Assembly (NCBI RefSeq): GCF_002775205.1
Contig: NC_036446.1
Span: forward strand, 12,462,565-12,526,564
DNA length: 64,000 bases
From: Xiphophorus maculatus
Taxonomy: Eukaryota; Chordata; Actinopteri; Cyprinodontiformes; Poeciliidae
Direction of reading: 5' to 3'
Below, in pieces: positions 9,640 through 53,449 of this stretch. The position numbers and the translations under genes were made by a program. Numbering within the stretch: the stretch's first letter is position 1; every line of letters starts with the position of its first letter. The notes beneath the pieces were generated by a model. The model worked only from the letters and a program-made list of their open reading frames with translations, was not told the DNA's origin and searched no databases.

Positions 9640-9647
9640 GTTTAAAT

Positions 9648-9871: not shown

Positions 9872-9882
9872 GTTTAAATATA

Positions 9883-16966: not shown

Positions 16967-17007
16967 TGCTGCAGGACTGCAGACATTCACAGGAAGCTGG
17001 ACCAGCA

Positions 17008-25276: not shown

Positions 25277-25327
25277 GTGATTGGTGGCGTTCTTTCCAGC
25301 AGGAAGTTGTGAGCAGAGTTTAAAAGC
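25277..25327 (+). promoter_or_regulatory. Core promoter of protease C
   Basis: GATTGG at 25279-25284 and TTTAAAAG at 25319-25326, before the ATG at 25369. Confidence 0.55.
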
Positions 25328-25368
25328 TGCTGCAGGACTGCAGACATTCACAGGAAGCTGGACCAGCA

Positions 25369-28244
25369 ATGGCTCTGCTGAAGGTTCTGCTGCTGCTGGG
25401 GCTGGGTGAGTCGGAAACACTGGAGACACTGGAGACACTTCCACTGGTTCAGTGAGGCTGCTGCTCTCTGTGTGACTCTCAAATGTCCCTCTGTTTTAGA
25501 CTGAAACTTTATTGCACAAACTGTGACGCTTTTTAATCTTTAACTGTTTATTCTTTTTCTGTTCTTGCTGCCATGTTTGCTCCTGATTTCTGAGTAAAGT
25601 CCTCCTTTTTCTTCTTCAGGTGTTTCAGTGAACTCAGATGTTTCTCTGCAGAAGAGAATCATTGGAGGTCAAAACTGTGATGAAGGTGAGCGTCTTTATC
25701 ATGTTCGGCTAGAAAGCAGCTATGGTAATGAAAAAATCCGCTGTGGAGGATCTCTGATCCACCCTCAGTGGATCCTGACTGCAGCTCACTGCTGGAAGGC
25801 TGAGCCAGGATGGTAGGAAAGAGATATGAAGACAGTTTTATCTGCAAATGATCAGATTTTCTGTCTGTTCATTATAATCTAACCTTTTCTGCAGGACTAC
25901 CGTAGCAACTTTAAATGTTCATCCACGGGCTGTTAGGAAGCAGATACGGGTAATTAAATACGCTCCTCAGATGTTTACACTCTTGGGCCAGCGGCATGAC
26001 ATCATGTTGCTGAAGCTTGAGACACCAGTAGGAAATGTTCCACTTGCTCAGCTACCAGACTGCAGTTATCGTCTTCAAGTGTAAGTGTTTCACTGATCAA
26101 CACCATGACTTCAGGTTTTCTGTCTCCACTCCTCCAGTCCTTCTTCTTCTTTCCTTTTTTTATGGTGGTTGGCAAACAACTTATAGGTGCATTACCGCAC
26201 CTTTCATACTGGAGTATGGATCAGATGTTTAATCTAATCGTTAATTATAATCTCCCCATAATGCCCATTCGTCTTAGAAAACTAAAATGCTGCTAAAAAC
26301 TACATCCCCAGATGATTTCTGAAACAATTCCCTAATATCAAATTTATTTTTATTCCTTCTTAAATCTCTAAGTAACTCATCTCTTTCCTGAACATATTTT
26401 TTGCATTCTAAAAAAATATGTTGTACTGTTTCTAATTTTCCACAATAATTACAACAACCGGTATTATGTGTATTAATTATTTTAATTCTGTATATCCACA
26501 TCTGATTCTACATATAACAGCTTCTTCTTCTTTTTTTAATTCTATTACATTTCCTTAATTCTCCAACTTTTTTTGGATACTATAATAAAACCTATTGCCT
26601 CCTCTATAGCAGTGCTCTTGCCATTTCTTCTTGATATACATTTTAATAATATTCTTTACCTCATTTTTACTTATTTTAATATTTAAATCAACAATATATA
26701 TTAAAATATCAATATATTAATATATTAGAATAATATTCTTTCTATATAACTTTCCACCTCTTTCTTTTCTGTCTCCCTTTTTTCAATAAGTTTAAATCAA
26801 CTTCAACCTGTCCAAAGATCCATGATGGAATAACAACAACAAGACTAATTAGAAAGTTATCTATTCCAACAGTTAATTATTATTATTATAAATATTATAA
26901 TGGTTAACTATTTATAATAAAAAGACAGGACAACACAGAGACTCAAGACACAAAGAAACCCAAAATAAACACACAGAGAACTCAAATCAACACAGAAAAA
27001 CCCCAATCCCGAAAAGTTCTACATCTGCAATAACTGTCTTTAATCCATTTGACAAACTGATTGACGGAATATGATTGACAAACTCCAATCATATCTTGTC
27101 CAGCCTTAAATTTTAATAAAACTTTAAAATCTTCCATCATTATTTTCTTGCTTATCTCAACTCTTTCTTCCTCATCCTCGAGTGATTCTTTTACCAGCAT
27201 TTAGTCCCCTTTTAACCTTATCTTTCCCCCTTCCTCTCTTCTATTTTCTATCATAGATCATCCTATGTCTACATTTTCATCTTCTGAAAGCCCCCCACTA
27301 CAACTAGCCATCTTGATCCACTCACAATCCAGTTTATGCCAAAACCACCTTTAAATTCAATTTATTACTCGCCAGATAACATTTGAGCGCTTTCCCTTTC
27401 AAAGAATCTGCATTCTTTTATCAGCAACAGCCACATCCTCGACTCCCTCCTCCAGTCCTGCTGCCTCTGCTTCAGCACACCTGAGTCAGGTAATCAGGCC
27501 ACCAGCAGAACCAGAACCCATTTAGCTCAGGTGTGTTGGACCAGAGACACATGTAAAGAGCGTAGGACACACTGAGGACTGGAGGTGGACACTCCTGTGT
27601 CAGTGGATGAAGTCCTTTATTGATTTCTTTTCTGTTCTTTCATTGTTCTTCATAACAATTCATTTTCTACATTGTTATCTTGAATATTTACATTTTATTC
27701 TTATTGTGTTTTAGAGGCGATGTTGTTCAGCTGGCAGGAGAGGGAGCAACAACCACTGGCCCCAATAATCAGCGATGTGAGAGAAATATTGAAGTTATGA
27801 GAATAAAATCTTTGTTTCTGTCTCTACAGAGAAGGTTGAGGGAAGAACATGTTTATGATTCTCATGTTTCTCTACAGTAATAGATGCTCCTATTCCAGCA
27901 CATCTACAATGTGTCGACATGAGAGTTGTTCAGGTTTCTGTTGTCATGCCGACATTTGGCCTTTTATTCTATGTTCAAGCACCGAACAAGGATGTATGCT
28001 ATGTAAGTTTGTTTCTTCAATATCTCTTTACAGCGATTAGAAGACTTTTCTGTTTTACAACATACATAAATATATCAATAAAATTTTTCTACAGGGCGAC
28101 GATGGTGGAGCAGTGGTGTACAACGGCATGATTTATGGTGTGATTTCTTTTGGTGTAGCATACTATGCATGTCAGAGTCACGCTACAGTCACGGATGTGT
28201 GTGAATATCTGGGGTGGATAAAATCTACAGCTGGGCTTATTTAA
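25369..28244 (+). CDS. S1-family protease homologue C, catalytic Ser replaced by Asp
   Basis: Six exons: 25369-25405, 25620-25812, 25895-26080, 27715-27776, 27878-28002 and 28095-28244 (753 nt, 250 residues). Signal peptide, QKR|IIGG activation site, His57 (TAAHCW), Asp102 (RHDIMLLKL) and Asp189 (KDVCYGD) are all kept. The active-site motif reads GDDGGA, with codon GAT in place of the TCT of A and B, so the nucleophile is gone. Exon 3 is three codons longer than in A and B. Cys220 is present (YYACQSH). No stop, frameshift or bad splice site is seen, although intron 3 carries 1.3 kb of LINE. A secreted pseudoprotease (decoy, inhibitor or binding protein) is the natural inference; function unknown. 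Shares the Asp change with D. Confidence 0.86.
26141..27446 (-). mobile_element. RNase-H-bearing LINE, internally deleted, in intron 3 of protease C
   Basis: It is inserted on the minus strand inside the intron-3 miniature element, with the 12-bp target repeat CTCCTCCAGTCC at 26129-26140 and 27447-27458. The 3' part encodes a knuckle-like C-terminus (CCNYCGKLETVQHIFLEC). The 5' part keeps an ORF1-like piece (MLVKESLEDEEERVEISKK). Compared with the copy in D, the middle (reverse transcriptase and RNase H) is deleted. A short LTR-derived stretch remains at about 26935-27016. Confidence 0.8.
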
Positions 28245-28660
28245 ACATAAACTATCATGAAATAAAATTCTCATCAAATTTCCTCTCACAAATAATTTTA
28301 TAATTGTATCTTCATCTTTTTGATCCACATGTTTGTAGAATTAGAATAAAGTAATTGTTTTGTTTTATTTTTCTCACCTGATCTTGACCTCCCTAATGGA
28401 GCTTTCTCTGCCTCAGAAATGAAAAATAAATCAATAAATGCATGAAAAACAAACATTTCCTGGTTGATCGTCTTTACATTCATGGTTCAGTTTGTTCACT
28501 TGATATTTTCCCTGAACTGAGTCTAAAAATGTGTCGAGTTTTAAATCACATCAAGAGGAACACCAGAAGTAATTTATTTATTCATTTTTTTTCTCCTCAC
28601 TGGCAAGAACTTTATATATGTGTCACATGCAGATGAAGTAAAGATGAACACAATGAGATG

Positions 28661-30214
28661 CTGATTATTCTGAACTCTTTTACCAGGGGAACCAAGACAA
28701 AATGACAAAAATATAACTTGAATTAGACAGAGTATTTATCCATTCATCCAGGGCCGTGCAGAGACCTTTGGAGGGGCTGGGGCTCAAATTTAAAAAAGGG
28801 GCACATTGAACAAAAGCTCCGTACAACAACATAGCAACAACCCATATTAATCAAGACTCTAATTGGATCCTACTATATCATTGCCATCATGTGGGGAAAT
28901 GCAAAGCAAATGTAGTCTAAAATTTCCCCAACAGGTATAAAGTTTCTGTTTCTGCTCCTGACAGTCCTAGAGGGCTGAGCTGATCTGAGACTGTAGCTGT
29001 TAAACAGACCAGAGGAGAGAAGGTCTCTGGTTATGAAGTTATGAAATAAGCAAAATTGCTGCCATTTTACTAATTAAGCCCTAATAATATGTATTTAACC
29101 TCTAGAACAACCTGGCTGCAGACTGATTTATAGATACAAAAACTCAAAGGGGTTAACTCTATATGATAGTTTGATGTTAAACCTCTAGATCTAGAATTAT
29201 AAGACTGGAATATCAAGGCAAAGAAAACTCAATAGCTGCTGGTAGGGGCCATTCAGGGGCCTCCAAACATTCAGGGGCCTCCAGACACTCAGGGGCCCCT
29301 AGAAATAGTCTAATTGTAACAAAGACAATAGATCTAAACCTGTAGCATCATTTATAGAGAATGACAATGTTATTACATTTTATTTAATGCATTCAGCTGA
29401 GAAAAATAAATAGTACATTTAGGATTTAATTAGGAAGTTTACTTTGTAAAAGTTTAAAGAATCATCTTGACAGTTTTATTGTTGTGTTACCATGGCTACA
29501 ATATGGTGTAATCTTTGCGCTTAATTGGGTTTGTTCACAAATACATCACAGCAAATAACCAATAATCAGTGATTGATTTTAAACTCTGCCAATAAACCTG
29601 GTCCCCTCTCACAGATTCACCTTATCTATATATAAACATGTTAGTGATGCTGAGGTTCTTAGTAGGACGGGTTCTGGGGGGAGGGGGGTTCTGTCTAAGG
29701 CCCCATATAACCTTGGGCCGGCCCTGCATGAACAGCCGCTGCGTTGTGCATCTCTGGAATCTACCTTGAATCTACCTGGAATCTACCTGGAATCCCCCGG
29801 TGGCCCCTATCAGTCCGCCGATGCTTTGGAGACATTTTGATTCATTTCATTGTGGCATGTTTGGCTTTATGCTGCGGTTCTAATTATTGCTACAGTATTT
29901 TCTCTGATGTTTATTTTATGAACTCTAAATGCTCTGGGCCGAATCTTCCTTAACACTTGAGGTTCTGCTTCTATTTACAGCCGCGGACCTCCAACCCAGA
30001 TCCCATCAGCAGTGGCTTTAACCCGCCTGGTAGTAACTGTTAGAATAATGTTATTATCATTGTTATGTTAGTAGTGTTACTAAGGTCATCTATTGCTTAA
30101 GTGTGAACATGTGTGTGAGACAGAGATGACCTCCTTTTAACCCTTAAAACATGTTCTTTGAAGATGGTTTTCTGAGAGTTTTAGACTACATTTGCTTTGC
30201 ATTTCCCCACATGA
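28661..30214. other. Spacer of the C/D palindrome
   Basis: Mostly the CAGGGCCG-ended transposon (28749-29726). 29950-30040 resembles the reverse of 24990-25040. No gene seen. Confidence 0.65.
28749..29726. mobile_element. CAGGGCCG-ended DNA transposon filling the palindrome centre
   Basis: CAGGGCCGTGCAGAGACC at the left and GGGCCGGCCCTG at the right. It is related to 15725-16505 but about 200 bp longer. It has no transposase frame. Confidence 0.6.
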
Positions 30215-30633
30215 TGGCATCTCATTGTGTTCATCTTTACTTCATCTGCATGTGACACATATATAAAGTTCTTGCCAGTGAGGAGAAAAAAAATGAATAA
30301 ATAAATTACTTCTGGTGTTCCTCTTCATGTGATTTAAAACTGGTCACATTTTTAGACTCAGTTCAGGGAAAATATCAAGTGAACAAACTGAACCATGAAT
30401 GTAAAGACGATCAGCCAGGAAATGTTTCTTCTTCATGCATTTATTGATTTATTTTGCCTTTCTGAGGCAGAGAAAGCTCCATTAAGGAGGTCAAGATCAG
30501 GTGAGAAAAATACAACAAAACAATTAATTTATTCTAATTCTACAAACATGTGCATCAAAAAGATGAAGATACAATTATAAAATTATTTGTGAGAGGAAAT
30601 TTGATGAGAATTTTATTTCATGATAGTTTATGT

Positions 30634-33600
30634 TTAAATAAGCCCAACTGTAGATTTTATCCACCCCATATATTCACACACATCCACGACTGCAGCGTGA
30701 CTCTGACATGCATAGTGTGGTTGACCAAGAGAAATCACACCATAAATCATGCCGTCGTACACCACTGCTCCACCATCGTCGCCCTGTAGAAAAATTTTAT
30801 TGATATATTTATGTATGTTGTAAAACAGAAAAGTCTTCTAATCGCTGTAAAGAGATTTTGAAGAAACAAACTTACATAGCAGACATCCTTGTTCGGTGTT
30901 TTAACATAGAATAAAAGGCCAAATGTCGGCGCGACGACAGAAACCCAAATAACTTTCATGTCGACACATTGTAGATGTGCTGGAATAGGAGCATCTATTA
31001 CTGTAGAGAAACATGAGAATTATAACTTGTTCTTCCCTCAACCTTCTCTGTAGAGACAGAAACAAAGATTTTATTCTCATAACTTCAATATTTCTCTCAC
31101 ATCGCTGATAATTGGGGCCAGTGGTTGTTGCTCCCTCTCCTGCCAGCTGAACAACATCGCCTCTAAAACACAATAAGAATAAAATGTAAATATACAAGAT
31201 AACAATGTAGAAAATGAATTGTTATGAAGAACAATGAAAGAACAGAAAAGAAATCCATGAAGGACTTCATCCACTGACACAGGAGTGTCCACCTCCAGTC
31301 CTCAGTGTGTCCTACGCTCTTTACATGTGTCTCTGGTCCAACACACCTGAGCTAAATGGGTTCTGGTTCTGCTGGTGGCCTGATTACCTGACTCAGGTGT
31401 GCTGAAGCAGAGGCAGCAGGACTGGAGGAGGGAGTCGAGGATGTGGCTGTTGCTGATAAAAGAATGCAGATTCTTTGAAAGGGAAAGCGCTCAAATGTTA
31501 TCTGGCGAGTAATAAATTGAATTTAAAGGTGGTTTTGGCATAAACTGGATTGTGAGTGGATCAAGATGGCTAGTTGTAGTGGGGGGCTTTCAGAAGATGA
31601 AAATGTAGACATAGGATGATCTATGGTAGAAAATAGAAGAGAGGAAGGGGGAAAGATAAGGTTAAAAGGGGACTAAATGCTGGTAAAAGAATCACTCGAG
31701 GATGAGGAAGAAGAGTTGAGATAAGCAAGAAAATAATGATGGAAGATTTTAAAGTTATATTAAAATTTAAGGCTGGACAAGATATGATTGGAGTTTGTCA
31801 ATCATATTCTGTCAATCAGTTTGTCAAATGGATTAAAGACAGTTATTGGAGATGTAGAACTTGTCGGGATTGGGGTTTTTCTGTGTTGATTTGAGTTCTC
31901 TGTGTGTTTATTTTGGGTTTCTTTGTGTCTTTAGTCTCTGTGTTGTCCTGTCTTCCCCTTGTTTGTTCCCAGGTGTGACTCGTTCCCTGATTTCTCTCTG
32001 TGTATTTAATCCCACCTGTGTTCCTTGTTCCTCGTCGGGTCCTTGTCTTATCTGTCTAAACTGTTGCGCTGTTAAGTCTGTCGTCTTGTCCATCCGTCAG
32101 TGCTACCTCTAGCTCCAACCCCAGCTTCTGCGTCTCCGGAACCTGCCACACCTCTCGCCGACACTGCACCTATCGTCTCTGCCCCTGTAAGTGACTTATC
32201 TGCCCCAGTCAGTGGGTTCTCTGCCTCTCCCCGTGGTCCCTCGCTGCCCCCTAGTGACTCCTCGCTGCCCCCAGTGCTCCCTTCGAGTCTCCTTACAACA
32301 TTACAAAGAAATATTTAATTATTTCATAATGATGAAGATTATGATGATTGTTTTAATATGAAGTTTTCTTTGTTAGAATTAAATAAAGCACTGAAGAATT
32401 CCAGTAAGTCAATTAATGGGAATGATCAAAACAGTTAAGTATGTTAAATAAACTTAGTGATGTGAGTATAGAAGTATTATTAGAATTTTATAATAGGGCG
32501 TTGGAAGAAGGGTTATTACCTCTTAAATGGAAAGAAGCCATTATCATACCCATTTGTAAACCTAGTACAGATCCTAATTCAGCTGAAAGTTATAGAGCAA
32601 TAGCTCTAACATCATGAATAGGTAAAATTATGGAAAAAAATGGTAAATAATAGATTAATTTATTTTTTAGAATCTAAGGAGAAGATTAAGTCTTCTCAAT
32701 TTGGATTTAGAAAAGGCAGAAGTACAATTATGTCTGGAACATGAAAGTAGACGGGCTCAGATTAATAAGGATAATGTGATAGCAGTCTTCCTGGATATGG
32801 AAAAGGCTTACGACATGTTATGGACAGAAGGGCTGTTGATGAAAATAAAACAAATAGGAACAAGGGGTAAAATATATAGATGGTTAAAAAAACGTAACTG
32901 AAAGAAATATTAGAGTAAAAATAAGAGGGCAAATAAGTTCAAAATATCAAGTAGAGAATGGTACTCCCCTAGGTAATATAAGTTCTATGCTATTTATTAT
33001 AATGGTTAATGATATTTTTAGTAGTATAAATGTTTTGGTGTCTCATTATTTGTAGATGATGGTATTATTTGGAAGAGGGGAAAAATACAGAATTTGTAAA
33101 TAGGAAACTACAAGAAGCATTAATAGTGTAGAAGCTTGGGCCTTAGGATGGGGATTTAGATTCTCAACGTCCAAGCCTAAATTTGTTGTTTTTACAAATA
33201 GAAAATTAAATATTAATGTAAATCTCAAATTATATGGGGATGTTATAGAAGGATCAAATTAAATGTTTCGGTATCTGGTTTGATAAAAAAAAAAAGTTAC
33301 ATGGAAAATACATGTAGGTAAAATAGTTGAAAAAAGTAAAACAAAAAAATGAATATAATGAGATGTTTGAAAGCAAAGAATGAGGGGAAGATATGAATGC
33401 ATTAAAGACCATTTATATTGGACTAATTAGATCAGTTTTTGATTATGGATGCATTTTATACAATTCAGCTTCAAGTAGTTCATTAAAAAAAACAGAAGAG
33501 AATATCAGGCATTAAGACTTTGTTGTGCAGCGATGAAAACTACTCCAGATTCAGCTCTACAGGTTGAGATGGGTGAGATGCCACTGGAGCTCAGGAGAGA

Positions 33601-35620
33601 ACAACTAGCCATAATTTACTGGACAAATATTAAAGGACATAATGAAGTTCATCCTTCATATGTTACACTGCAACCTTGTCAAATTAATAGTTTTGGCTGG
33701 TTAATCATAAATAATTAACCATTATAATAATTATGATAATAATAATTAACCATTGGAATAGATAACTTTCTAATTAGTCCTGTGGTTGTTATTCCATCAT
33801 GGATCTTTGGACAGGTTGAAGTTGATTTAAACTTATTGAACAAAGGGAGACAGTTAGAAAAGAAAGAGGTGGAAAGTTATATAGAAAGAGAATATTCAGA
33901 GTATATATAAATATATACAGATGCTTCTAAAATGTTAAATGATATATAATTTGTAATTCCAGATTTAAATATTATGAGAAATAAAAGAATAACAGATAAA
34001 TTGACAGTGTATACAGGTGAATTAATGGCTATTTTAATGGCTTTAGAATGGATTGAGGAAACAAGAGAGAGAGGTTTTAATTTGTTCAGATTCAAGTAGT
34101 GCATTAATAAGTATTCAAGAGTTAAATTCAGAATCAAGGCAAGATATTATATTGGATATAATTCTCTCAATTTTTAGAATTAAAAATTATGGTTCTCATG
34201 TTAGACTAGTTTGGATTCCTGCCCACATTGGTGTGGTAGGAAATGAGTTGGCCGATAGTTTTGCTAAGAGTGCAGCAAAAAAGAATATTGTTGATTTAAA
34301 TATTACAATAGGTAAAAATGAGGTAAAGAATATTATTAAAATGTATATCAAGAAGAAATGGCAAGAGCACTTTGATAGAGGAGGCAATAGGTTTTGTTAT
34401 TGTATCCAATAAAAGTTGGGGAATTAAGGAAATGTAATAGAATTAAAAAAAAAGAAGAAGCTGTTATATCTAGAATCAGATGTGAATATACAGAATTAAA
34501 ATAATTAATACACATAATACCAGTTGTTGTAATTATTATGGAAAATTAGAAACAGTACAACATATTTTTTTAGAATGTCATAAATATGTTCAGGAAAGAG
34601 ATGAGTTACTTAGAGATTTAAGTAGGAATAAAAATGAATTTGATATTAGGGAATTGTTTCAGAAATCATCTGGGGATGTAGTTTTTAGCAGCATTTTAGT
34701 TTTCTAAGAAGAATGGGCATTATGGGGAGATTATAATTAACGATTAGGTTAAACATCTGATCCATACTCCAGTATGAAAGGTGTGGTAATGCACATATAA
34801 GTTGTTTGCCAACCACCATAAAAAAAGGAAAGAAGAAGAAGGACTGGAGGAGTGGAGACAGAAAACCTGAAGTCATGGTGTTGATCAGTGAAACACTTAC
34901 ACTTGAAGACGATAACTGCAGTCTGGTAGTCGAGCAAGTGGGACATCTCTTACTGGTGTCTCAAGCTTCAGCAACATGATGTCATGCAGCTGGCCCAAGA
35001 GTTTAAACATCTGAGGAGCGTATTTAATTTCCCATCTCTGCTTCCTAACAGCCCGTGGATGAAATTTTAAAGTTGCTACGGTAGTCCTGCAGAAAAGGTT
35101 AGATTATAATGAACAGACAGAAAATCTGATCATTTGCAGGTAAAACTGTCTTCATGTTTTATCTGCATTCCTACCATCCTGGCTCCGACTTTTGGCAGTG
35201 AGCTGCAGTCAGGATCCACTGAGGGTGGATCAGAGATCCTCCACAGCGGATTTTTTCATTACCATAGCTGCTCTCTAGCCGAACATGATAAAGACGCTCA
35301 CCTTCATCACAGTTTTGACCTCCAATGATTCTCTTCTGCAGAGAAACATCTGAGTTCACTGAAACACCTGAAGAAGAAAAAGGAGGACTTTACTCAGAAA
35401 TCAGGTGCAAACATGGCTGCTGGAACAGAAAAAGGATAAACAGTTAAAGATTAGAAAGCATCACAGTTTATATGCAAAGACGTTCCAGTCTGAAACAGAG
35501 GGAAGTTTGAGAGTCACACAGAGAGCAGCACCCTCACTGAACTAGTGGAAGTGTCTCCAGTGTCTCCAGTGTTTCTGACTCACCCAGCCCCAGCAGCAGC
35601 AGAACCTTCAGCAGAGCCAT
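30634..35620 (-). CDS. S1-family protease homologue D, catalytic Ser replaced by Asp
   Basis: Six exons on the minus strand: 35620-35584, 35367-35175, 35086-34901, 31162-31101, 31000-30876 and 30783-30634 (753 nt, 250 residues). Intron 3 (34900-31163) is enlarged by a 3.4-kb LINE. His57 is kept (TAAHCQ, with the usual next Trp changed), as are Asp102 (LHDIMLLKL), Asp189 (KDVCYGD) and the activation site. Ser195 is Asp (GDDGGA), as in C. The C-terminus is WIKSTVGLI. It differs from C at scattered residues (for example REIKYAP-type changes in exon 3 and SLGQPHYACQ near the end) without breaking the frame. Splicing across the large LINE-bearing intron is inferred. Confidence 0.83.
31431..34840 (+). 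mobile_element. RNase-H-bearing LINE (I/Nimb-like) in intron 3 of protease D
   Basis: It is inserted opposite to the host gene, flanked by the 12-bp target repeat GGACTGGAGGAG (31419-31430 and 34841-34852). Reverse-transcriptase pieces lie at about 32500-33720 (SSQFGFRKGRST, FLDMEKAYD, NGTPLG). An RNase H domain lies at about 34080-34290 (CSDSSSALISI, VWIPAHIGVVGNELAD). A C-terminal knuckle lies at about 34530-34590 (CCNYYGKLETVQHIFLEC). The frame is interrupted in several places and no endonuclease is seen, so the copy is dead. RT plus RNase H plus a C-terminal knuckle fits the I superfamily. It holds an LTR-derived piece at 31863-32295. Confidence 0.8.
31863..32295 (+). mobile_element. Partial LTR-retrotransposon fossil nested in the LINE
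   Basis: It begins TGTCGGGATTGG and shares 'gttgtcctgtc', 'ttgttcccaggtgtg', 'tgtattta', 'ccacctgtgttccttgttcc' and 'tcgtcgggtcct' with the LTR at 55157-55460. It is followed by a proline-rich stretch like the interior of that element. Same group but clearly older and more divergent. Fragmentary. Confidence 0.65.
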
Positions 35621-35661
35621 TGCTGGTCCAGCTTCCTGTGAATGTCTGCAGTCCTGCAGCA

Positions 35662-35712
35662 GCTTTTAAACTCTGCTCACAACTTCCTGCTGGAAAGAAC
35701 GCCACCAATCAC
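35662..35712 (-). promoter_or_regulatory. Core promoter of protease D
   Basis: Minus-strand GATTGG (35704-35709) and TTTAAAAG, in the same spacing as the other copies. Confidence 0.55.
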
Positions 35713-35965
35713 AGGACAGACACTGATCTGTGCTGTCATCTGCGTACAGAGGAATGTCAACATCTAATTGTTCTAAAGAAATTAGAAAAAAGTTCTTGTT
35801 CCATTGAAAGATTATTTCACTATCAAAACATTTCCCCCTCTGTTGGTGGAATATTCAGCCAATGAAATTTTTCATCAATATTTGAATTGACTCAAATAAG
35901 CAGCTCATATATTTTGCAGTAACTGCAGTAACATCTATTTACAGCAGTAAAATAACAGCAGTATT

Positions 35966-40290: not shown

Positions 40291-40331
40291 TGCTGGTCCA
40301 GCTTGCTGTGAATGTCTGCAGTCCTGCAGCA

Positions 40332-40380
40332 GCTTTTAATCTCTGTTCATAATTTCCTGCTGAAGAGAGACACCAATCAC
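40332..40380 (-). promoter_or_regulatory. Core promoter of protease E
   Basis: Minus-strand GATTGG (40373-40378) and ATTAAAAG. The T-to-A change at the start of the TATA-like element is shared with F and G. Confidence 0.5.
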
Positions 40381-41502: not shown

Positions 41503-41919
41503 TGTCATGTTGGATTTTAATTTCCTTGCCCACATGCAGGTGCGCACAGAAGAACAGATTTGACAGTTAAGAGGGTTTGTTTTAATGAGGTCAAACAATG
41601 GTTCGAGAATTGAGACTGGGGGACGTCAGGAGGGAACGAGAGTCCAGGTAGGTTCGGGGGTCCCGGGCCGCAGCGGATCCGAACTGCTTGGAGGTGCCAA
41701 CCAACGAGACGCGCCTGACCGGTGAAGTTCCAGGCTTGGCTCCGGGAAGCGGGATCAACATCAACAAGTGGTAACCATCGAGCGATGACTGGTGGTTCCA
41801 CCGCTTCTTAAGAAGCCTGCCGCTGGTTACCGGAATCCGATGCAGGTGCATCAGGCTGTCAAACTCCTCCGCGTAGCTCGTCTCTGGAAAGAACCCTCAC
41901 TCCAACCTGAATCCTGACA
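41503..41919. mobile_element. Solo LTR (fossil), upstream of protease E
   Basis: A 417-bp sequence starting TGTCATGTTGG and ending CCTGACA, flanked by the 5-bp repeat CCTTT (41498-41502 and 41920-41924). No internal region is present, so it is the product of LTR-LTR recombination. Gypsy-like by termini and target size; family not determined. Confidence 0.8.
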
Positions 41920-41924
41920 CCTTT

Positions 41925-44040
41925 ATCTAGTTTGTCACAAAAGAAATAAACTATTAATAGTGCTACTGGTTTCAAACCAGTCCAGTTTATTTAGAGGTAA
42001 AGATAATATCATCTCTCTGCAAGAAACAATATAGGGGATAAGTTATGCATTTGTCCCATGGTAAAGCCAACAATAGATCTTCTCCTGCTAATGACACATA
42101 CAGGTAGTAAAACAAAACGTGTAGGTATATTTTTTCTCAAGAAGGGAAGGCAGCAGCTGGGAGAGGCAGATGTTTCGGTGAACGTGGCTTTTTAGGATCC
42201 CTTTACTGAACCAGGAAATAAACAAATGCTATAAACTTAAAGATCTACAAATCTTTGCAAAATACTATGTGATTGTGTAAGAAAGCCATTAAGATCTCTA
42301 TCAAAATAGATTTCAAGATGCAATAAAACAGATCTCAAAACAAAGATTAATGCCACATAAATGTACATAAAGACATAAATGTACTTTGATTAATTTTATC
42401 ATGTAGTATTTCTATTCTAAATTGTGGATTAAAACTTGTGGATCCTCTATCCAGTGTGAATAACTTCACCGAATGAAGAACAAGCTTGTTTTATCAAACA
42501 TTCACCAGACGCTGAAACACACCTGCAGTTTGTTGGAAATGAGGTGTTGACATTCACAAATGACATTGAAATAAAATCCAGTCCATCCAGTCCTGGTTTG
42601 AGGCGATTCCTCCGGATCCTGATTGAGGAAAAATATCCCAACTTCACAAAATGTGCTTTTATCTAAGCAGAGCTCTGTGGTTCTTCCTATAAGTCTGAAA
42701 TATCTCACATTGAGGTCATTAAACCGAAGTTCAGATCTACCATAACTGACTGATTCCTGCTTGCCTCAGGTTTGCAACCAGCTTCTGAAACCAGTAACCT
42801 CCTCCCAGTGTCAGAATCTCACTGAGGAACAAACTTCATTAGGTTTTCTATCACTTTAATGTTTCTGCTATAACTGATGGATATTTGCATATGAAATTAG
42901 TCAATAGAGTTTCATTTACAATTTTTATATCTTCGTGTTATGAGGTAGATCTCTGCCGGCTGGTGACAAAAAAGTAGATCTTGGTCTCAAAATGTTTGGG
43001 CACCGCAATATTAAACCCATCAGGGAAACATAAACTACATTTGCTTTGCATTGTCCTTTCATGATGACAGTGATATAGTATGATCCGATTAAATATTAGA
43101 TTCTTGATTAATATGGGTTGTTGCCATGTTGTTGTACAATGTTTTAAGATCTTGTTCAGTGTGCCCCTTTTTAAGTTTGAGCCCCTGCCCCTCCAAAGGT
43201 CTTTGCACGGCCCTGTGTGCATGTGAGCAGATAAAACAGAGAAAAGACAAACAGTCCTTTGGTCCATAACAGAGTGTTCCTTATGAATTTCTTGTAACAT
43301 TTCTTGTCTATAAAATCACAAGATTCATTGTTTCTTTTACGAAGTCTTTTTAGTGACATTAGTCTTTTTCTTTTTTTTCTATTTGTAACTTTAGTTAAAT
43401 ATGAGCAAACTGTCTTCAAAAACTCAATAAAGTTCACAGTTTCCTAACATTAAAGTCCAGACCGGATGTTTTCAAAGCATCCAAGTTTATAGAAAGCCAA
43501 CAAGCTCACATATACATAAAACATGATTTTTAACACGTAAGCAACTCTTTATCTGCGAGCTGCACATGTGGTTTTTGTGTTAAACTTCTACAGGCTGTTC
43601 TTGAGAAAACATGCAGTTGTTTGTATTACTCAACTCCATGCACACCTGCTTGCAGCTTGATACAGTCTGCAGGGTCAGTGCTGGCATATTTATTTCCCGT
43701 CTCGTTTTACTACCTGTCTGTGCAGGTGAAGTTCTGTTGTTGGCGTTATTTCTTACAGGTACAGATCACATTTTCTCCATCTCTTAATGAACTGGACTGG
43801 ATTCGTCTGGTGAGTGTTTTTTTAAAACAAGCTTGTTCTTCATTCAGTGAAGTTATTCACACTGGATAGAGGATCCACAAGTTTTAATCCACAAGTTAGA
43901 AAAGAAATACTTCATGATAAAATTTATCAAATAAAAGTACATTTATGTGTTTATCTGCATTTATGTGGCATTAATCTTTGTTTTGAGATCTGTTTTATTG
44001 CATCTTGAAATCTATTTTGATAGAGATATTAATCGGTTCC
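41925..44040. other. Interval between E and F: short inverted arms around a spacer
   Basis: 42425-42490 mirrors 43836-43895 around a spacer. The spacer holds the locus-wide 'cataacagagtgttccttatg' unit (43200-43330) and a piece ending in the CAGGGCCG-type terminus. At about 44035 the sequence jumps into the 3' flank of F, as if a divergent plus-strand copy had been deleted. No gene recognised. Confidence 0.55.
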
Positions 44041-45028
44041 TTACATAGATTTCACTATAAAATTTCCAGAGAACTTCTGTCATATTTAAACTTTTGAAAA
44101 GCAAATTGTAATTTCTGAGAAGTTTTACATAATAAACATGTAATTTACATTATAATTTCAACAGTGAAAGAAAATATATTATTGCTCTTCTTCCTTTATT
44201 TTGCAGCTAATTCTTATGTTGTTTTTTATGATAATTCTTTTTTGTAGCTTTATGTGACTCTTTAAAAATTGTTAATTTTAAAATTAACAATGAATCTTTA
44301 ACTTCAATAGAGGAAAAGTTTCTATCATTTTCATGTTAAATTTGTGGCAAACAGAAGCTACCATTAATTAGTTTGACCCATTTTTAAATATTTTCTTAAA
44401 ACTTCTTTCATTTGAGATTTTTACTTTTAAATTGTTTTAATTATTGAACTTTTTACTTATTTGTATCTTTCTTAAAAATATGATGTTTTTTATTATTTTT
44501 AAAATATTAGGAGTCTATTATCTCTTAATTGCTGTATTATGTGACTTCTGTTTCATTATTTTTGTGCACAGCTCTTTGGTCTTGTTGGAGTTTAAAGTTC
44601 TCTAGAAATAAATCAGGAAGAGTAACTCCCGAGCTGCAGAGTTTAGATGCTGCATGTTCATTTCTGATGGAAAATAAAGACAAAATCTTAATAAATAAAT
44701 TACTTCTGGTGTTCCTCTTCATGTGATTTAAAACTCATGTCGCGTTTTTAGACTCAGTTCAGGGAAAATATCAAGTGAACAAACTGAACCATGAATGTAA
44801 AGACGATCAGCCAGGAAATGTTTGTTTTTCATTCATTTATTGATTTATTTTTCATTTTTCAGGTGAAGAGAAAGCTCCATTAGGGAGGTCAAGATCAGGT
44901 GAGAAAAAACAAAACTATTGATTTATTCTAATTCTACAAACATGTGGATCAAACTGATGAAGATAAAATTATAAATTTATATGTGAGAGGAAATTTGATG
45001 AGAATTTTATTTCATTATAGTTCATGTT

Positions 45029-46582
45029 TTATTGAATCCTAGTTACGGCTTTTATCCACTGCAGATATCCACACACATCCAAGATTGCAGTTGGTTTCTG
45101 ACATGCCTTTATTCCGGCAAAAGAAATCACACCATAAATCATGTCGTTGTACACCACTGCTCCACCAGTGTCGCCCTGTAGAAATATTTATATCAATATA
45201 TTTATTTATGTTATAAACAGAAAAGTCTTCTAATCGCTGCAGAGAGATTTTGAAGAAGCAAACTCACACGACATATATCCTTGCTCGGTGCTGAAGCAAG
45301 GAATATATACCCATACGGCGGCATGATGACGGAAATACGAAAAACCTGCATGTTGACACATTGAAGATGTGCTGGAATAGGAGCATTGGGTGATACTGTA
45401 GAGAAACATGAGAATCATTAACTTGTTCTTCCCTCAACCTTCTCTGTAGAGACAGAAACAAAGATTTTATTCTCATAACTTCAATATTTCTCTCACATCG
45501 TTCATTATTGGGGCCGGCTGTTGTTGCTCCATCTCCTGCCAGTTGAACAACATCGTCTCTAAAACACAATAAGAATAAAATGTAAAAATACAAGATAACA
45601 ATGTAGAAAATTAATTATTATGAAGAACAATGAAATAACAGAAAATAAATCCATGAAGGACTTCATCCACTGACACAGGAGTGTCCACCTCCAGTCCTCA
45701 GTGTGTCCTGTGTCCTTTACATGTGTCTCTGGTCCAACACACCTGAGCTAAACAGGTTCTGGTTCTGCTGGTGGCCTGATTACCTCACTCAGGTGTGCTG
45801 AAGCAGAGGCAGCAGGATTGGAGGAGTGGAGACAGAAAACCTGAAGTCATGTTTTTGATCAGAGAAAGATTTACGCTTTAAGACGATAACTGCAGTCTGG
45901 TAGCCGAGCAACTGGGACATCTGTTACTGGTGTCTGAAGCTTCAGCAAAATGATGTCATGGTGCTGGCCGTAAATCTCAGGAACTTGTCGGATTACCTGA
46001 ATGTACTGTATAACAGTCCGTGGATGAACTTTTAACATTGCTCTGTTAGTCCTGCAGAAAAGGTTAGATTATAATGAACAGACAGAAAACCTGATAATCT
46101 GCAGATAAAACTGTCTTCATGTTTCCTTCCTACCATCCTGGCTCCGACTGCCAGCAGCGAGCCACAGTCAGGATCCACTGAGGGTGGATCAGAGATCCTC
46201 CACAGCGGCTCATATGAGTACCATTGCGGCTCTCTAGCCGAACATGATAAAGACGCTCCGTGTCATCACAGTTTTGACCTCCAATGATTCTCTTCTGCAG
46301 AGAAACATCTGAGTTCACTGAAACACCTGAATAAGAAAAAGGAGGACTTTACTCAGAAATCAGGTGCAAACATGGCAACAAGAACAGAAAAAGGCTAAAC
46401 AGTAAAAGATTAAAAAGAATCTGTTTATATGCAAAGACGTTTCAGTCTGAAACAGAATCAGAGGAAAGTTTGAGAGTCACAGAGAGCAGCAGCCTCACTG
46501 GAACCAGTGGAAATGTCTCCAGTGTCTCCAGTGTTTCCGACTCACCCAGCCCCAGCAGCATCAGAACCTTCAGCAGAGCCAT
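45029..46582 (-). CDS. S1-family pseudoprotease F, His57 to Arg and Ser195 to Thr
   Basis: Six exons on the minus strand: 46582-46546, 46326-46134, 46051-45875, 45558-45497, 45395-45268 and 45175-45029 (744 nt, 247 residues). It has the same double active-site change as E (TVARCW, GDTGGA), the same NGT glycosylation site, Asp189 (KDICRGD) and activation site. It differs from E at a few residues, for example VFRISV for VIRISV, SFAGIKACQ for SFGGAKACQ, and C-terminus WIKAVTRIQ. In several of these it agrees with G instead of E, although E and F are the tandem pair. That points to gene conversion or to G and F being mirror partners. Confidence 0.86.
45680..45834. mobile_element. hAT-like miniature element in intron 3 of protease F
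   Basis: Same block as at 6561-6716. Confidence 0.6.
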
Positions 46583-46623
46583 TGCTGGTCCAGCTTGCTG
46601 TGAATGTCTGCAGTCCTGCAGCA

Positions 46624-46672
46624 GCTTTTAATCTCTGTTCATAATTTCCTGCTGAAGAGAGACACCAATCAC
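46624..46672 (-). promoter_or_regulatory. Core promoter of protease F
   Basis: Minus-strand GATTGG (46665-46670) and ATTAAAAG, as in E. Confidence 0.5.
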
Positions 46673-47791
46673 AGGACGGACAACCATCTGTGCTGTCATC
46701 TGCATACAGAGAAACTTTAATATCTCATCGTTCTAAAGAAACTTGGAAAAAAGTTCTTGTTCCATTGACAGATTATTTAACTAAAAACAAAAACTTTCTC
46801 CCTCTCCTAACTAAAATAATCAACCAATGAAACAAAAGTTAATCAATATTAAGGAATTGACTCAAAAAAGCAGCTCATAAATTTTGCTGCACAACCTTAC
46901 AGTGAGTTTTGCTCAAAAGAAAACTTGATTGTAAACTTGATGAAATAAAAATGATTTTCTGAAGAAAAGCGACTCGTATTTGTTTTCATGTCGATGTTTT
47001 TTTAAGAAAGAACTGTTTGGTTTCCAATCTACAAGAATTCACATCTGCCTTTGCTCCCAAAAGTAAATGGCCCTCTACAAACCGATTCTTTTATTTTGAA
47101 AAAGATCAATATTACAGTGCTGGGTGGTAAAGAGCATTTGCATTTGTTGTAGATCTGAAATTACAACAAAAAATTAATCCTCACAGAAATTCACCCAATT
47201 AAATTAAAACAATTTTGATTTTTAAACAATTAAAAGATAACTATGGTAAAATTTTAACAGATGTGATTCTATTAAAGACACAACCTCTTTCATCACCCAT
47301 GATTCTTTGCTTTTACAGTTTTTCTTGACTGCTTTGATGCATTTGTGAACACAAGAGGCTGAACAGCAGGACATAAAGTCAAAGTGGCACATTTTGTTAA
47401 CAAAAGGCTCAAACTGTGCCAAAACATTTAAAATATTAAATGTTTCATGACTGAGAAACAACCCCTGTTAGTACTTCAGACCTGCATTATATATATAACC
47501 CATTTCATGGGCAGTGGAGCTAATGTGCTAACACAGATCAAGTTAAGGAAAAACCTGAATATAATTTTTTTTTAAGAAGTCCTGATGATACAATGTGAAA
47601 AACCAAAAGACTAATGTAACTAAAATGTCCTTTGTATAAGAATCTTGTGATTTTATAGACATGAAATGTTACAAGAAATTCATAAGGAACACTCTGTTAT
47701 GGACAAAAGGACTCTTTGTCTTTGTTTTATCTGCTCACATGCACACGGCTGCACGCTGAACATCTTTGAACATAAAGGGCTCGGCACCTTT

Positions 47792-48208
47792 TGTCATGTT
47801 GGATTTTAATTTCCTTGCCCACATGCAGGTGCGCACAGAAGAACAGATTTGACAGTTAAGAGGGTTTGTTTTAATGAGGTCAAACAATGGTTCGAGAATT
47901 GAGACTGGGGGACGTCAGGAGGGAACGAGAGTCCAGGTAGGTTCGGGGGTCCCGGGCCGCAGCGGATCCGAACTGCTTGGAGGTGCCAACCAACGAGACG
48001 CGCCTGACCAGTGAAGTTCCAGGCTTGGCTCCGGGAAGCGGGATCAACATCAACAAGTGGTAACCATCGAGCGATGACTGGTGGTTCCACCGCTTCTTAA
48101 GAAGCCTGCCGCTGGTTACCGGAATCCGATGCAGGTGCGTCAGGCTGTCAAACTCCTCCGCGTAGCTGGTCTCTGGAAAGAACCCTCACTCCAACCTGAA
48201 TCCTGACA
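47792..48208. mobile_element. Solo LTR (fossil), upstream of protease F
   Basis: The duplicate of the solo LTR at 41503-41919: same length, same termini, same CCTTT flanks. It was copied with the tandem unit; it is not a second insertion. Confidence 0.8.
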
Positions 48209-48780
48209 CCTTTATCTAGTTTGTCACAAAAGAAATAAACTATTAATAGTGCTACTGGTTTCAAACCAGTCCAGTTCATTTAGAGGTAAAGAAAATATCA
48301 TCTCTCTGCAAGAAACAATATAGGGGATAAGTTATGCATTTGTCCCATGGTAAAGCCAACAATAGATCTTCTCCTGCTAATGACACATACAGGTAGTAAA
48401 ACAAAACGTGTAGGTATATTTTTTCTCAAGAAGGGAAGGCAGCAGCTGGGAGAGGCAGATGTTTCGGTGAACGTGGCTTTTTAGGATCCCTTTACTGAAC
48501 CAGGAAATAAACAAATGCTATAAACTTAAAGATCTACAAATCTTTGCAAAATACTATGTGATTGTGTAAGAAAGCCATTAAGATCTCTATCAAAATAGAT
48601 TTCAAGATGCAATAAAACAGATCTCAAAGCAAAGATTAATGCCACATAAATGTACATAAAGACATAAATGTACTTTGATTAATTTTATCATGTAGTATTT
48701 CTATTCTAAATTGTGGATTAAAACTTGTGGATCCTCTATCCAGTGTGAATAACTTCACCGAATGAAGAACAAGCTTGTTT

Positions 48781-50099
48781 TATCAAACATTCACCAGACG
48801 CTGAAACACACCTGCAGTTTGTTGGAAATGAGGTGTTGACATTCACAAATGACATTGAAATAAAATCCAGTCCATCCAGTCCTGGTTTGAGGCGATTCCT
48901 CCGGATCCTGATTGAGGAAAAATATCCCAACTTCACAAGATGTGCTTTTATCTAATCAGAGCTCTGTGGTTCCTCCTATAAGTCTGAAATATCTCACATT
49001 GAGGTCATTAAACCGAAGTTCAGATCTACCATAACTGACTGATTCCTGCTTGCCTCAGGTTTGCAACCAGCTTCTGAAACCAGTAACCTCCTCCCAGTGT
49101 CAGAATCTCACTGAGGAACAAACTTCATTAGGTTTTCTATCACTTTAATGTTTCTGCTATAACTGATGGATATTTGCATATGAAATTAGTCAATAGTTTC
49201 ATTTACAATTTTTATATCTTCGTGTTATGAGGTAGATCTCTGCCGGCTGGTGACAAAAAAGTAGATCTTGGTCTCAAAATGTTTGGGCACCACACAGCAA
49301 CATTAAACCCATCAGGGAAACATAAACTACATTTGCTTTGCATTGTCCTTTTATGATGACAGTGATATAGTATGATCCGATTAAATATTAGATTCTTGAT
49401 TAATATGGGTTGTTGCCATGTTGTTGTACAATGTTTTAAGATCTTGTTCAGTGTGCCCCTTTTTAAGTTTGAGTCCCTGCCCCTCCAAAGGTCTTTGCGT
49501 GGCCCTGTGTGCATGTGAGCAGATAAAACAGAGAAAAGACAAACAGTCCTTTGGTCCATAACAGAGTGTTCCTTATGAATTTCTTGTAACATTTCTTGTC
49601 TATAAAATCACAAGATTCATTGTTTCTTTTACGAAGTCTTTTTAGTGACATTAGTCTTTTTCTTTTTTTCTATTTGTAACTTTAGTTAAATATGAGCAAA
49701 CTGTCTTCAAAAACTCAATAAAGTTCACAGTTTCCTAACATTAAAGTCCAGACCGGATGTTTTCAAAGCATCCAAGTTTATAGAAAGCCAACAAGCTCAC
49801 ATATACATAAAACATGATTTTTAACACGTAAGCAACTCTTTATCTGCGAGCTGCACATGTGGTTTTTGTGTTAAACTTCTACAGGCTGTTCTTGAGAAAA
49901 CATGCAGTTGTTTGTATTACTCAACTCCATGCACACCTGCTTGCACCTTGATACAGTCTGCAGGGTCAGTGCTGGCATATTTATTTCCCGTCTCGTTTTA
50001 CTACCTGTCTGTGCAGGTGAAGTTCTGTTGGCTTTATTTCTTACAGGTACAGATCACATTTTCTCCATCTCTTAATGAACTGGACTGGTTTTGTCTGGT
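48781..50099. other. Spacer of the F/G palindrome
   Basis: Sequence between the arms ending 'gaagaacaagcttgtttt' (about 48780) and starting 'aacaagcttgttcttc' (about 50110). It holds the 'cataacagagtgttcc' unit at 49500-49620. Short open frames at 49912-50157 and similar are repeats of 43621-43869 and 54609-54923; no domain recognised. Confidence 0.6.
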
Positions 50100-51805
50100 G
50101 ATTGTTTGGTTAAAACAAGCTTGTTCTTCATTCGGTGAAGTTATTCACACTGGATAGAGGATCCACAAGTTTTAATCCACAATTTAGAATAGAAATACTA
50201 CATGATAAAATTAATCAAAGTACATTTATGTCTTTATGTACATTTATGTGGCATTAATCTTTGCTTTGAGATCTGTTTTATTGCATCTTGAAATCTATTT
50301 TGATAGAGATCTTAATGGCTTTCTTACACAATCACATAGTATTTTGCAAAGATTTGTAGATCTTTAAGTTTATAGCATTTGTTTATTTCCTGGTTCAGTA
50401 AAGGGATCCTAAAAAGCCACGTTCACCGAAACCTCTGCCTCTCCCAGCTGCTGCCTTCCCTTCTTGAGAAAAAATATACCTACACGTTTTGTTTTACTAC
50501 CTGTATGTGTCATTAGCAGGAGAAGATCTATTGTTGGCTTTACCATGGGACAAATGCATAAATTATCCCCTATATTGTTTCTTGCAGACAGATGATATTT
50601 TCTTTACCTCTAAATGAACTGGACTGGTTTGAAACCAGTAGCACTATTAATAGTTTATTTCTTTTGTGACAAACTAGATAAAGGTGCCGAGCCCTTTATA
50701 TTCAAAGATGTTCAGCCTGCAGCCGTGTGCATGTGAGCAGATAAAACAAAGACAAAGAGTCCTTTTGTCCATAACAGAGTGTTCCTTATGAATTTCTTGT
50801 AACATTTCATGTCTATAAAATCACAAGATTCTTATACAAATGACATTTTAGTTACATTAGTCTTTTGGTTTTTCACATTGTATCATCAGGACTTCTTAAA
50901 AAAAAATTATATTCAGATTTTTCCTTAACTTGATCTTTGTTAGCACATTAGCTCCACTGCCCATGAAATGGGTTATATACTGTATATAATGCAGGTCTGA
51001 AGTACTAACAGGGGTTGTTTCTCAGTCATGAAACATTTAATATTTTAAATGTTTTGGCACAGTTTGAGCCTTTTGTTAACAAAATGTGACACTTTGACTT
51101 TATGTCCTGCTGTTCAGCCTCTTGTGTTCACAAATGCATCAAAGCAGTCAAGAAAAACTGTAAAAGCAAAGAATCATGGGTGATGAAAGAGGTCTGTGTC
51201 TTTAATAGAATCACATCTGTTAAAATTTTACCATAGTTTTCTTTTAATTGTGTTTAAAAATCAAAATTGTTTTAATTTAATTGGGTGAATCTCTGTGAGG
51301 ATTAATTTTTTGTTGTAATTTCAGATCTACAACAAATGCAAATGCTCTTTACCACCCAGCACTGTAATATTGATCATTTTCAAAATAAAAGAATCGGTTT
51401 GTAGAGGGCCATTTACTTTTGGGAGCAAAGGCAGATGTAAATTCTTGTAGATTGGAAACCAAACAGTTCTTTCTTAAAAAAACATCGACATGAAAACAAA
51501 AACGAGTCGCTCTTTCATCAAAAAATAATTTTTATTTCATCAAGTTTACAATCAAGTTTTCTTTTGAGCAAAACTCACTGTAAGGTTGTGCAGCAAAATT
51601 TATGAGCTGCTTTTTTGAGTCAATTCCTTAATATTGATTAACTTTTGTTTCATTGGTTGATTATTTTAGTTATGAGGGAGAAAGTTTTTGTTTTTAGTTA
51701 AATAATCTGTCAATGGAACAATAACTTTTTTCCAAGTTTCTTTAGAACGATGAGATATTAAAGTTTCTCTGTATGCAGATGACAGCACAGATGGTTGTCC
51801 GTCCT

Positions 51806-51854
51806 GTGATTGGTGTCTCTCTTCAGCAGGAAGTTATGAACAGAGATTAAAAGC
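51806..51854 (+). promoter_or_regulatory. Core promoter of protease G
   Basis: GATTGG (51808-51813) and ATTAAAAG (51846-51853), before the ATG at 51896. Confidence 0.5.
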
Positions 51855-51895
51855 TGCTGCAGGACTGCAGACATTCACAGGAAGCTGGACCAGCA

Positions 51896-53449
51896 ATGGC
51901 TCTGCTGAAGGTTCTGATGCTCCTGGGGCTGGGTGAGTCGGAAACACTGGAGACACTGGAGACATTTCCACTGGTTCCAGTGAGGCTGCTGCTCTCTGTG
52001 ACTCTCGAACTTTCCTCTGATTCTGTTTCAGACTGAAACGTCGTTGCATATAAACAGATTCTTTTTAATCTTTTACTGTTTAGCCTTTTTCTGTTCTTGT
52101 TGCCATGTTTGCACCTGATTTCTGAGTAAAGTCCTCCTTTTTCTTCTTCAGGTGTTTCAGTGAAATCAGATGTTTCTCTGCAGAAGAGAATCATTGGAGG
52201 TCAAAACTGTGATGAAGGTGAGCATCTTTATCATGTTCGGCTGGAGAGACGTAACGGTACTCATATGAGCCGCTGTGGAGGATCTCTGATCCACCCTCAG
52301 TGGATCCTGACTGTGGCTCGCTGCTGGAAGTCAGAGGATGGATGGTAGGAAGGAAACATGAAGACAGTTTTATCTGCAGATTATCAGGTTTTCTGTCTGT
52401 TCATTATAATCTAACCTTTTCTGCAGGACTAACAGAGCAATGTTAAAAGTTCATCCACGGACTGTTATACAGTACATACAGTCAATCCGACAAGTTCCTG
52501 AGATTTACGGCCAGCACCATGACATCATTTTGCTGAAGCTTCAGACACCAGTAACAGATGTCCCAGTTGCTCGGCTACCAGACTGCAGTTATCGTCTTAA
52601 AGCGTAAGTCTTTCTCTGATCAAAAACATGACTTCAGGTTTTCTGTCTCCACTCCTCCAGTCCTGCTGCCTCTGCTTCAGCACACCTGAGTCAGGTAATC
52701 AGGCCACCAGCAGAACCAGAACCTGTTTAGCTCAGGTGTGTTGGACCAGAGACACATGTAAAGGATCTAGGACACACTGAGGACTGGAGGTGGACACTCC
52801 TGTGTCAGTGGATGAAGTCCTTCATGGATTTATTTTCTGTTATTTCATTGTTCTTCATAATAATTAATTTTCTACATTGTTATCTTGTATTTTTACATTT
52901 TATTGTTATTGTTTTTTAGAGACGATGTTGTTCAACTGGCAGGAGAGGGAGCAACAACAGCTGGCCCCAATAATGAACGATGTGAGAGAAATATTGAAGT
53001 TATGAGAATAAAATCTTTGTTTCTGTCTCTACAGAGAAGGTAGAGGGAAGAACATGTTAATGATTCTCATGTTTCTCTACAGTGCCCCCCAATGCTCCTA
53101 TTCCAGCACATCTTCAATGTGTCAACATGCAGGTTTTTCGTATTTCCGTCATCATGCCGCCGTATGGGTATATATTCCTTGCTTCAGCACCGAACAGGGA
53201 TATATGTCGTGTGAGTTTGCTGCTTTAATGTCTCTCTGCAGCGATTAGAAGACTTTTCTGTTTATAACATAAATAAATATATTGATATAAAAATTTCTAC
53301 AGGGCGACACTGGTGGAGCAGCGGTGTACAACGACATGATTTATGGTGTGATTTCTTTTGCTGGAATAAAGGCATGTCAGAAACCAACTGCAATCTTGGA
53401 TGTGTGTGAATACCTGTGGTGGATAAAAGCCGTAACTAGGATTCAATAA
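51896..53449 (+). CDS. S1-family pseudoprotease G, His57 to Arg and Ser195 to Thr
   Basis: Six exons: 51896-51932, 52152-52344, 52427-52603, 52920-52981, 53083-53210 and 53303-53449 (744 nt, 247 residues). Same double active-site loss as E and F (TVARCW, GDTGGA), with Asp102, Asp189 (RDICRGD) and QKR|IIGG kept, and the NGT glycosylation site present. Private features: VKSDVS in place of VNSDVS after the signal peptide, GEHLYH for GERLYH, GEG retained where E and F have GDG, LPPNAPIP at the start of exon 5, and C-terminus LWWIKAVTRIQ. Exon 2 ends WKSEDGW as in A and B, whereas the E and F version is WQSEPGW. This mosaic again suggests conversion between copies. Confidence 0.86.
52646..52802. 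mobile_element. hAT-like miniature element in intron 3 of protease G
   Basis: Same block as at 6561-6716. Confidence 0.6.

Follow-up and report, generated by a model that had tools for sequence, protein, structure and literature searches.

Viper venom serine protease homologues (SVSPH), for example rhinocerases 2 and 3, are the closest described systems to the subject of this work, a cluster of seven S1A (trypsin-fold) genes named A to G in a 64,000-nucleotide stretch of the Xiphophorus maculatus genome (contig C4:12462565-12526564, hereafter the window). In its accessible sections the account of SVSPH reports His57Arg in 13 listed sequences and replacement of Ser195 in seven (five Asn, one Pro and one Thr), with Asp102 conserved in all, and holds that loss of the catalytic triad arose several times (PMC3123349). 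Acceleration of exons is documented for viper venom serine proteases in the accessible part of PMC2711939. Further non-catalytic S1 proteins are described in what is accessible of PMC13194640: a set of inactivated S1-family protease paralogues of the scabies mite, with substitutions in and around the cleft and a retained chymotrypsin-like fold, and HGF/MSP, protein Z and haptoglobin, in which an S1 domain serves as a ligand, a cofactor or a scaffold. For HGF/MSP the same part of that source describes the region of the pseudo-active site as a core recognition interface.

The seven genes belong to an array of 21 detected S1A-fold paralogues on contig C4 and, judging from the sequences, we consider it likely that most of the encoded proteins are secreted pseudoproteases which are diversifying and in which the dead active site has become part of a binding face. 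As far as the accessible SVSPH account allows a comparison, the array shares with SVSPH the S1A fold, His57Arg, Ser195Thr, accelerated exon segments and repeated triad loss, but differs in that residue 195 is here Asp, Thr, Val, Ala or Pro and Asp102 has been lost in 4 of the 21 copies. SVSPH come from viper venom, whereas the array comes from a fish genome. Positive selection at residue 195 itself, supported by likelihood in the C4 array, was not seen in the accessible sections of PMC3123349. By analogy the C4 proteins may be likened in process to SVSPH, as pseudoproteases under diversifying selection. The scabies mite paralogues, from an arthropod parasite lineage, resemble them by partial description in being an S1 set with cleft-region substitutions and the fold kept, while HGF/MSP, protein Z and haptoglobin, as there described, resemble the proposed proteins in using an S1 domain without catalysis. 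Titles and the beginnings of abstracts in the literature on fish S1 pseudoprotease arrays gave no description of such an array; most subscription journals lay outside the scope of that search, which is not proof of its being unpublished.

Genes of the window and their active sites

The DNA pattern of GDxGG, searched in degenerate form, occurs at seven places in the window, where shuffled sequence would give 0.29. All seven copies yielded open six-exon S1A models of 247-250 residues with GT-AG at every intron, intron phases 1-2-2-1-0 (by exon length), a common signal peptide and activation site QKR-IIGG, and AATAAA at most 20 bases after the stop; in the seven pairs compared, every exon insertion or deletion has a length divisible by three. 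The profile PF00089 (Trypsin domain) matched copies B, C and F over positions 1-220 of 220 (E 5e-24 to 1e-28), and the best solved relative of copy B is a trypsin (E 1.2e-16). Residues were numbered from the alignment to the trypsin of PDB 1an1, which we take to be porcine trypsin. The genes are:

Copy A, 5909..7457, minus strand: exons 7457-7421, 7208-7016, 6933-6757, 6441-6380, 6278-6154 and 6058-5909; H57/D102/S195
Copy B, 17008..18550, plus strand: six exons; H57/D102/S195
Copy C, 25369..28244, plus strand: six exons, 1.6-kb intron 3; H57/D102/D195 (GAT at 28101-28103)
Copy D, 30634..35620, minus strand: six exons, 3.7-kb intron 3; H57/D102/D195 (30777-30775)
Copy E, 38742..40290, minus strand: six exons; R57 (39867-39865)/D102/T195 (38882-38880)
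Copy F, 45029..46582, minus strand: six exons; R57 (46159-46157)/D102/T195 (45169-45167)
Copy G, 51896..53449, plus strand: six exons; R57 (52319-52321)/D102/T195 (53309-53311)

The codon of residue 195 is TCT (Ser) in A and B, GAT (Asp) in C and D and ACT (Thr) in E, F and G. A preliminary description of the window had given the same residues, which the codons read in the spliced models bear out, together with intact frames, splice sites, signal peptides, R-IIGG sites, Asp102 and Asp189 in C-G, all of which were found again. All seven copies keep Asp102 (GAC), Asp189 (GAT), Gly193 and Asp194, and the two elements of S1A zymogen activation, the Ile16 site (R-IIGG) and Asp194, are present throughout. 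The statement of the preliminary description that there was no other decay proved wrong for E, F and G, in which codon 57 is CGC (Arg) against CAC (His) in A-D. The triad H57-D102-S195 is complete in A and B; it is broken by S195D in C and D and by H57R and S195T in E, F and G. The idea, also put forward there, that Thr195 might be a weak nucleophile found no support, a working Thr195 in E-G being ruled out since residue 57 is Arg. With a triad residue replaced, the frame kept and a fold assigned by profile only, copies C-G would fit the description of S1 pseudoproteases.

The S1 pocket is unusual even with an intact triad, because none of the seven copies has Trp at position 215 and all have Ser, Ala or Thr at position 226. 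Since A and B have Val at 216 and Ser at 226, their predicted specificity is doubtful and they may not be Arg/Lys proteases. A cysteine ten residues before Cys232, present in C-G and absent from A and B, is a likely partner of Cys191. Mature residue 22 of E, F and G lies in a sequon for N-glycosylation (NGT).

The C4 array and its relatives in the genome

The searched genome comprises 704 Mb in 101 contigs. A genome-wide protein search gave at least 167 exon matches (150 of 288 candidates scored); an exon-6 search, with 93 of 93 candidates scored, gave 67 matches, five of which were not read at residue 195. The protein search and the flanking stretches revealed further arrays of the family. 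The array of contig C4 has 21 copies at 12.277-12.574 Mb, and the same 21 were returned by the exon-6 search, which found no exon-6 match in the unread sequence at 12.293-12.362 Mb. Residues 57, 102 and 195 of these copies are:

Q277 HDD, Q284 HDT, Q290 HDV, P00 RDV, P01 HDP, P02 RDV
P03 HGA, P04 HGS, P05 HGA, P06 RDT, P07 HDT
A and B HDS; C and D HDD; E, F and G RDT; R1 HND, R2 HDD, R3 HDT

Residue 57 is thus His in 15 copies and Arg in six, residue 102 Asp in 17, Gly in three and Asn in one, and residue 195 Thr in seven, Asp in five, Val and Ser in three each, Ala in two and Pro in one. At least one triad residue has been replaced in 19 of the 21 copies, the complete triad being kept only in A and B. 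The two different replacements of the catalytic serine noted earlier hold for the window, where Asp and Thr occur, but describe the array too narrowly, as five residues besides Ser are found across it. On contig C27 a copy a has HDS, and a copy b has HDD with Gly193 replaced.

A sister array on contig C5 (28.40-28.47 Mb, 12 exon-6 matches) resembles the window genes in the six-exon plan, signal peptide and R-II(G/A)G site of its modelled copies. Unlike in the C4 array, all ten modelled copies have H57/D102/S195, and Ser195 is present in every one of the 12 exon-6 matches; it is likewise retained in the six close dispersed copies read (one each on C10, C11, C14 and C15, two on C22). Thirteen more distant exon-6 matches were read (C3 0.93-0.97 Mb, C5 23.5 and 27 Mb, C6, C8, C20, C21 and C23), with Ser in 12 and Asn in one. 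An array on contig C3 (8.36-8.42 Mb; L041, L063-L073; eight exon-6 matches) has Ser195 in four of the eight, three of these with Asp194 replaced by Glu, Ala in three and Tyr in one; its residue 57, read in five of eight, is His in two, Asp in two and Thr in one. As Ser195 is kept in the C5 and dispersed copies and in 12 of the 13 distant ones, its loss is concentrated in the C4/C27 and C3 arrays. The C3 losses at 57, 194 and 195 form a pattern distinct from that of the C4 array. The C5 copies (part of L032-L054, L077 and L078) differ at the Cys191 position and in the nearby Cys220 region.

Divergence between the window classes

Between the classes A/B, C/D and E-G, divergence at replacement sites (dN) is 0.19-0.26, at synonymous sites (dS) 0.11-0.18 and in introns 0.075-0.11, dN being 2.0-3.3 times the intron value. 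Exons 3, 5 and 6 differ by 8.5-29% between classes, introns 1, 2, 4 and 5 and the 3' flank by 1-16%, and the signal and propeptide show 0 or 1 replacement differences in three class pairs. The contrast known from SVSPH-type genes, accelerated exons against conserved introns and signal region, was thus found in the window copies.

Codon models were fitted with our own implementation, written for the analysis. For the seven copies M0 gave omega (dN/dS) 1.44 (twice the log-likelihood difference, 2dlnL, 5.9 against 1), and the step from M1a to M2a gave 2dlnL 80.6, with 22% of codons at omega ~7; the maximum in 40 null simulations was 9.4. Omega on the stem branches was 1.97 (2dlnL 10.6). Recombination was rejected as the source of the site-model signal, M2a beating M1a in four of four segments with free branch lengths (2dlnL 12.8 to 35.5), and so was misalignment, with 2dlnL still 59 without the columns near gaps. 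The codon-based comparison proposed earlier gave a positively selected class in the site models and no significant difference for pairwise dN against dS. The suggested selection for non-catalytic, presumably secreted proteins gained support from the open frames, from replacement divergence above that of introns and from the positively selected site class.

Residue 195 across the array

Site tests were made on the 20 open-frame copies of C4 and C27. Residue 195 is Asp in six of them, Ser in four, Thr in four, Val in three, Ala in two and Pro in one, its entropy of 2.41 bits ranking 11 of 246 columns, inside a loop whose residues 194, 196 and 198 are invariant and whose residues 193 and 197 are the same in 19 of 20. 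The codons found at 195 are TCT, GAT, ACT, GTT, GCT and CCT, with third base T throughout, whereas codons 196 and 198 do not vary at all among the 20 copies. Each of the other five codons lies one step from GCT, so that Ala may be a hub.

A tree of 31 copies (from C4, C27 and C5, with a single one from C3) implies a minimum of 10 amino-acid changes at 195 (rank 19 of 245 columns); an exon-6 tree from which codon 195 was left out implies 11. The independent changes claimed in the preliminary description are hence supported by the wider family; the window alone leaves parsimony equal, since a single loss in the C-G ancestor takes equally few nucleotide changes if the root is placed on the A/B stem.

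For the site models of the array and of C5, branch lengths were fixed at IQ-TREE values up to one scale factor. In the array M0 omega was 1.27 and 2dlnL from M1a to M2a was 218, with a posterior probability (PP) of 0.999 that residue 195 belongs to the positively selected class; in the same model positions 57 and 102 gave no positive-selection signal (PP 0.15 and 0.06). In C5 the corresponding values were 1.31 (2dlnL 3.1 against 1), 71 and PP(195)=0.014. Site omega at 195 was 4.25 on the gene tree (P 1.1e-4 uncorrected, rank 16 of 247) and 4.75 on the exon-6 tree without codon 195 (P 5e-5 uncorrected, rank 4 of 48). Both arrays thus contain a positively selected class, with 28 selected columns in C5 and 41 in C4/C27; ten columns are common to the two sets (4.6 expected, P 0.007).

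Duplications and other elements

4230..20341: inverted duplication with A and B, arms 97-98%
10139..11260, minus strand: open 373-codon Tc1/mariner-type transposase frame, best solved relative Sleeping Beauty
25107..35882: inverted duplication with C and D, arms 410-809 nt, 96-99%
37762..55112: segmental duplications with E, F and G; E/F direct, spacing ~6.29 kb; F/G inverted arms 43366-46804 and 51674-55112 (98%)
55156..57189: two identical 300-nt direct repeats, 1734 bases apart, around a GC-rich tandem-repeat region; long open frames, no Pfam match; perhaps a terminal-repeat element of recent origin

The Tc1 transposase and the compact genes are in keeping with a teleost. At 3.7 kb, intron 3 of copy D (31163-34900) exceeds its counterparts in C (1.6 kb) and in the other five copies (~0.3 kb each), and by the appearance of its sequence seems to contain inserted repeat material. 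An insertion in exon 5 of copy R3, outside the window, resembles a DNA transposon end. Rfam at the gathering threshold and tRNA scans gave no matches, and no confirmed relatives were found in viral and prokaryote collections.

Discussion

The history we propose would start with a catalytic ancestor that was duplicated and whose triad is still kept by the C5 sister array; catalysis would then have been lost repeatedly, with the copies mostly retained as open genes, and diversification would since have been driven at many positions, residue 195 included. The pseudo-active site and the surrounding loops would serve as a binding face for a fast-changing partner, for which a protease inhibitor, a parasite or pathogen protein and a mating partner's protein are candidates, and the function of the proteins would be that of ligands, decoys or non-catalytic cofactors, not of enzymes. 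HGF/MSP, protein Z and haptoglobin are single genes, unlike the diversifying C4 array. If catalysis had simply been lost, residue 195 would be expected to evolve neutrally; the results favour a faster rate.

The main rival, which we regard as rather unlikely, is relaxed constraint, under which residues 57, 102 and 195 drift once catalysis is not needed and the array decays toward pseudogenes. Several results speak for it or otherwise weigh against diversifying selection on a binding face. Three of the 21 C4 copies are broken: P06 by a two-base deletion upstream of the activation site, Q284 by an exon 5 frameshift at a C run, and R3 by a GC donor after exon 3 and the exon 5 insertion. Omega within A/B (1.46), C/D (1.84) and E-G (0.62) does not differ from 1; in three class pairs the bootstrap intervals of dN-dS include zero (Fisher P 0.15-0.17), and dS of the mature part exceeds intron divergence (P 0.0002, 0.035 and 0.005). 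Much of that excess seems to come from residue-changing codons, because four-fold sites in unchanged codons diverge about like introns (0.037-0.103 against 0.071-0.102 in four class pairs, no clear excess). The seven-copy signal depends on codons that differ at two or more bases and is gone when these are dropped, a filter that does not decide the matter because 12 data sets simulated under selection also lose the signal (2dlnL at most 3.0). The uncorrected P of 1.1e-4 at 195 becomes ~0.03 over 247 columns. Neutral simulation there produces the observed number of residues, six or more, with P=0.038 (1.7% of cases with the third base unchanged) and an entropy of at least 2.41 with P=0.0026, which makes drift unlikely, not impossible. 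Several nodes of the 31-copy tree have support of 40-72, gene conversion can distort trees, and the sites were placed in the cleft by alignment at ~30% identity. What speaks against relaxed constraint is the 2.0- to 3.3-fold excess of replacement over intron divergence, the near-invariant neighbours of 195, the omega above 1 at that residue, the 68 of 247 columns significantly below omega 1, and the absence of stops from the seven copies, where 9.4 were expected on neutral C-G branches (P ~9e-5) and 4.1 with the C-G crowns only (P 0.017).

A second rival attributes the accelerated divergence of exons to switched segments or to gene conversion, with unseen paralogues as donors, after the manner of the ASSET process known in viper venom serine proteases (accessible part of PMC2711939); residue 195 would then have been carried along without codon-by-codon selection. 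The differences between B and C are indeed clustered in exons (53 adjacent pairs, 31.7 expected; 7 against 4.2 in introns and 3' flank), and class similarity is uneven by exon, B and F differing by 8.5% in exon 3 and 28% in exon 5. We nevertheless find this improbable: the change is limited to codon 195, codons 196 and 198 being identical in all 20 copies, the exon-6 tree made without it still requires its 11 changes, and the groups AB, CD and EFG hold in exons 2-6 (exon 1 is too short). That some variants remain catalytic through a substitute nucleophile or other chemistry, by Thr195 or by Asp195 with His57, is very hard to credit. Asp102, Asp189, Gly193 and Asp194 are intact in the window and His57 in C and D, but E, F and G lack this general base, Val, Pro and Ala in sister copies could not act as nucleophile, and a shared chemistry leaves six residues at 195 unexplained. 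We know of no Asp195 nucleophile in the S1A fold. Equally hard to credit is an artefact of assembly or base calling, for which the palindromic, highly similar arms might be cited. The contig is 35 Mb long, the sister C5 array shows no such variation, and base-calling error is not a reasonable cause because the same residue 195 recurs within the pairs C/D, E/F, E/G and F/G, each ~4-6.5% apart in coding sequence.

Loss of a catalytic residue is usually seen as an end point, whereas in the C4 array the lost residue seems to be evolving still, at more than the neutral rate and within a loop that otherwise hardly varies. It does so in many paralogues of a single genome, for which the triad-keeping sister array is an internal control, and the fate of an active site under selection after catalysis is lost thus becomes directly testable. 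It is possible, and we put it forward tentatively, that the catalytic serine has turned into a hypervariable residue used for recognition, that the pseudo-active site works as a combinatorial binding face in which the former nucleophile is itself under diversifying selection, and that the inactive array may supply decoys in an arms race by which the C5 array is driven too. The array also suggests a large group of secreted proteins, probably of fishes, with possible roles as decoys, in immunity or in reproduction.

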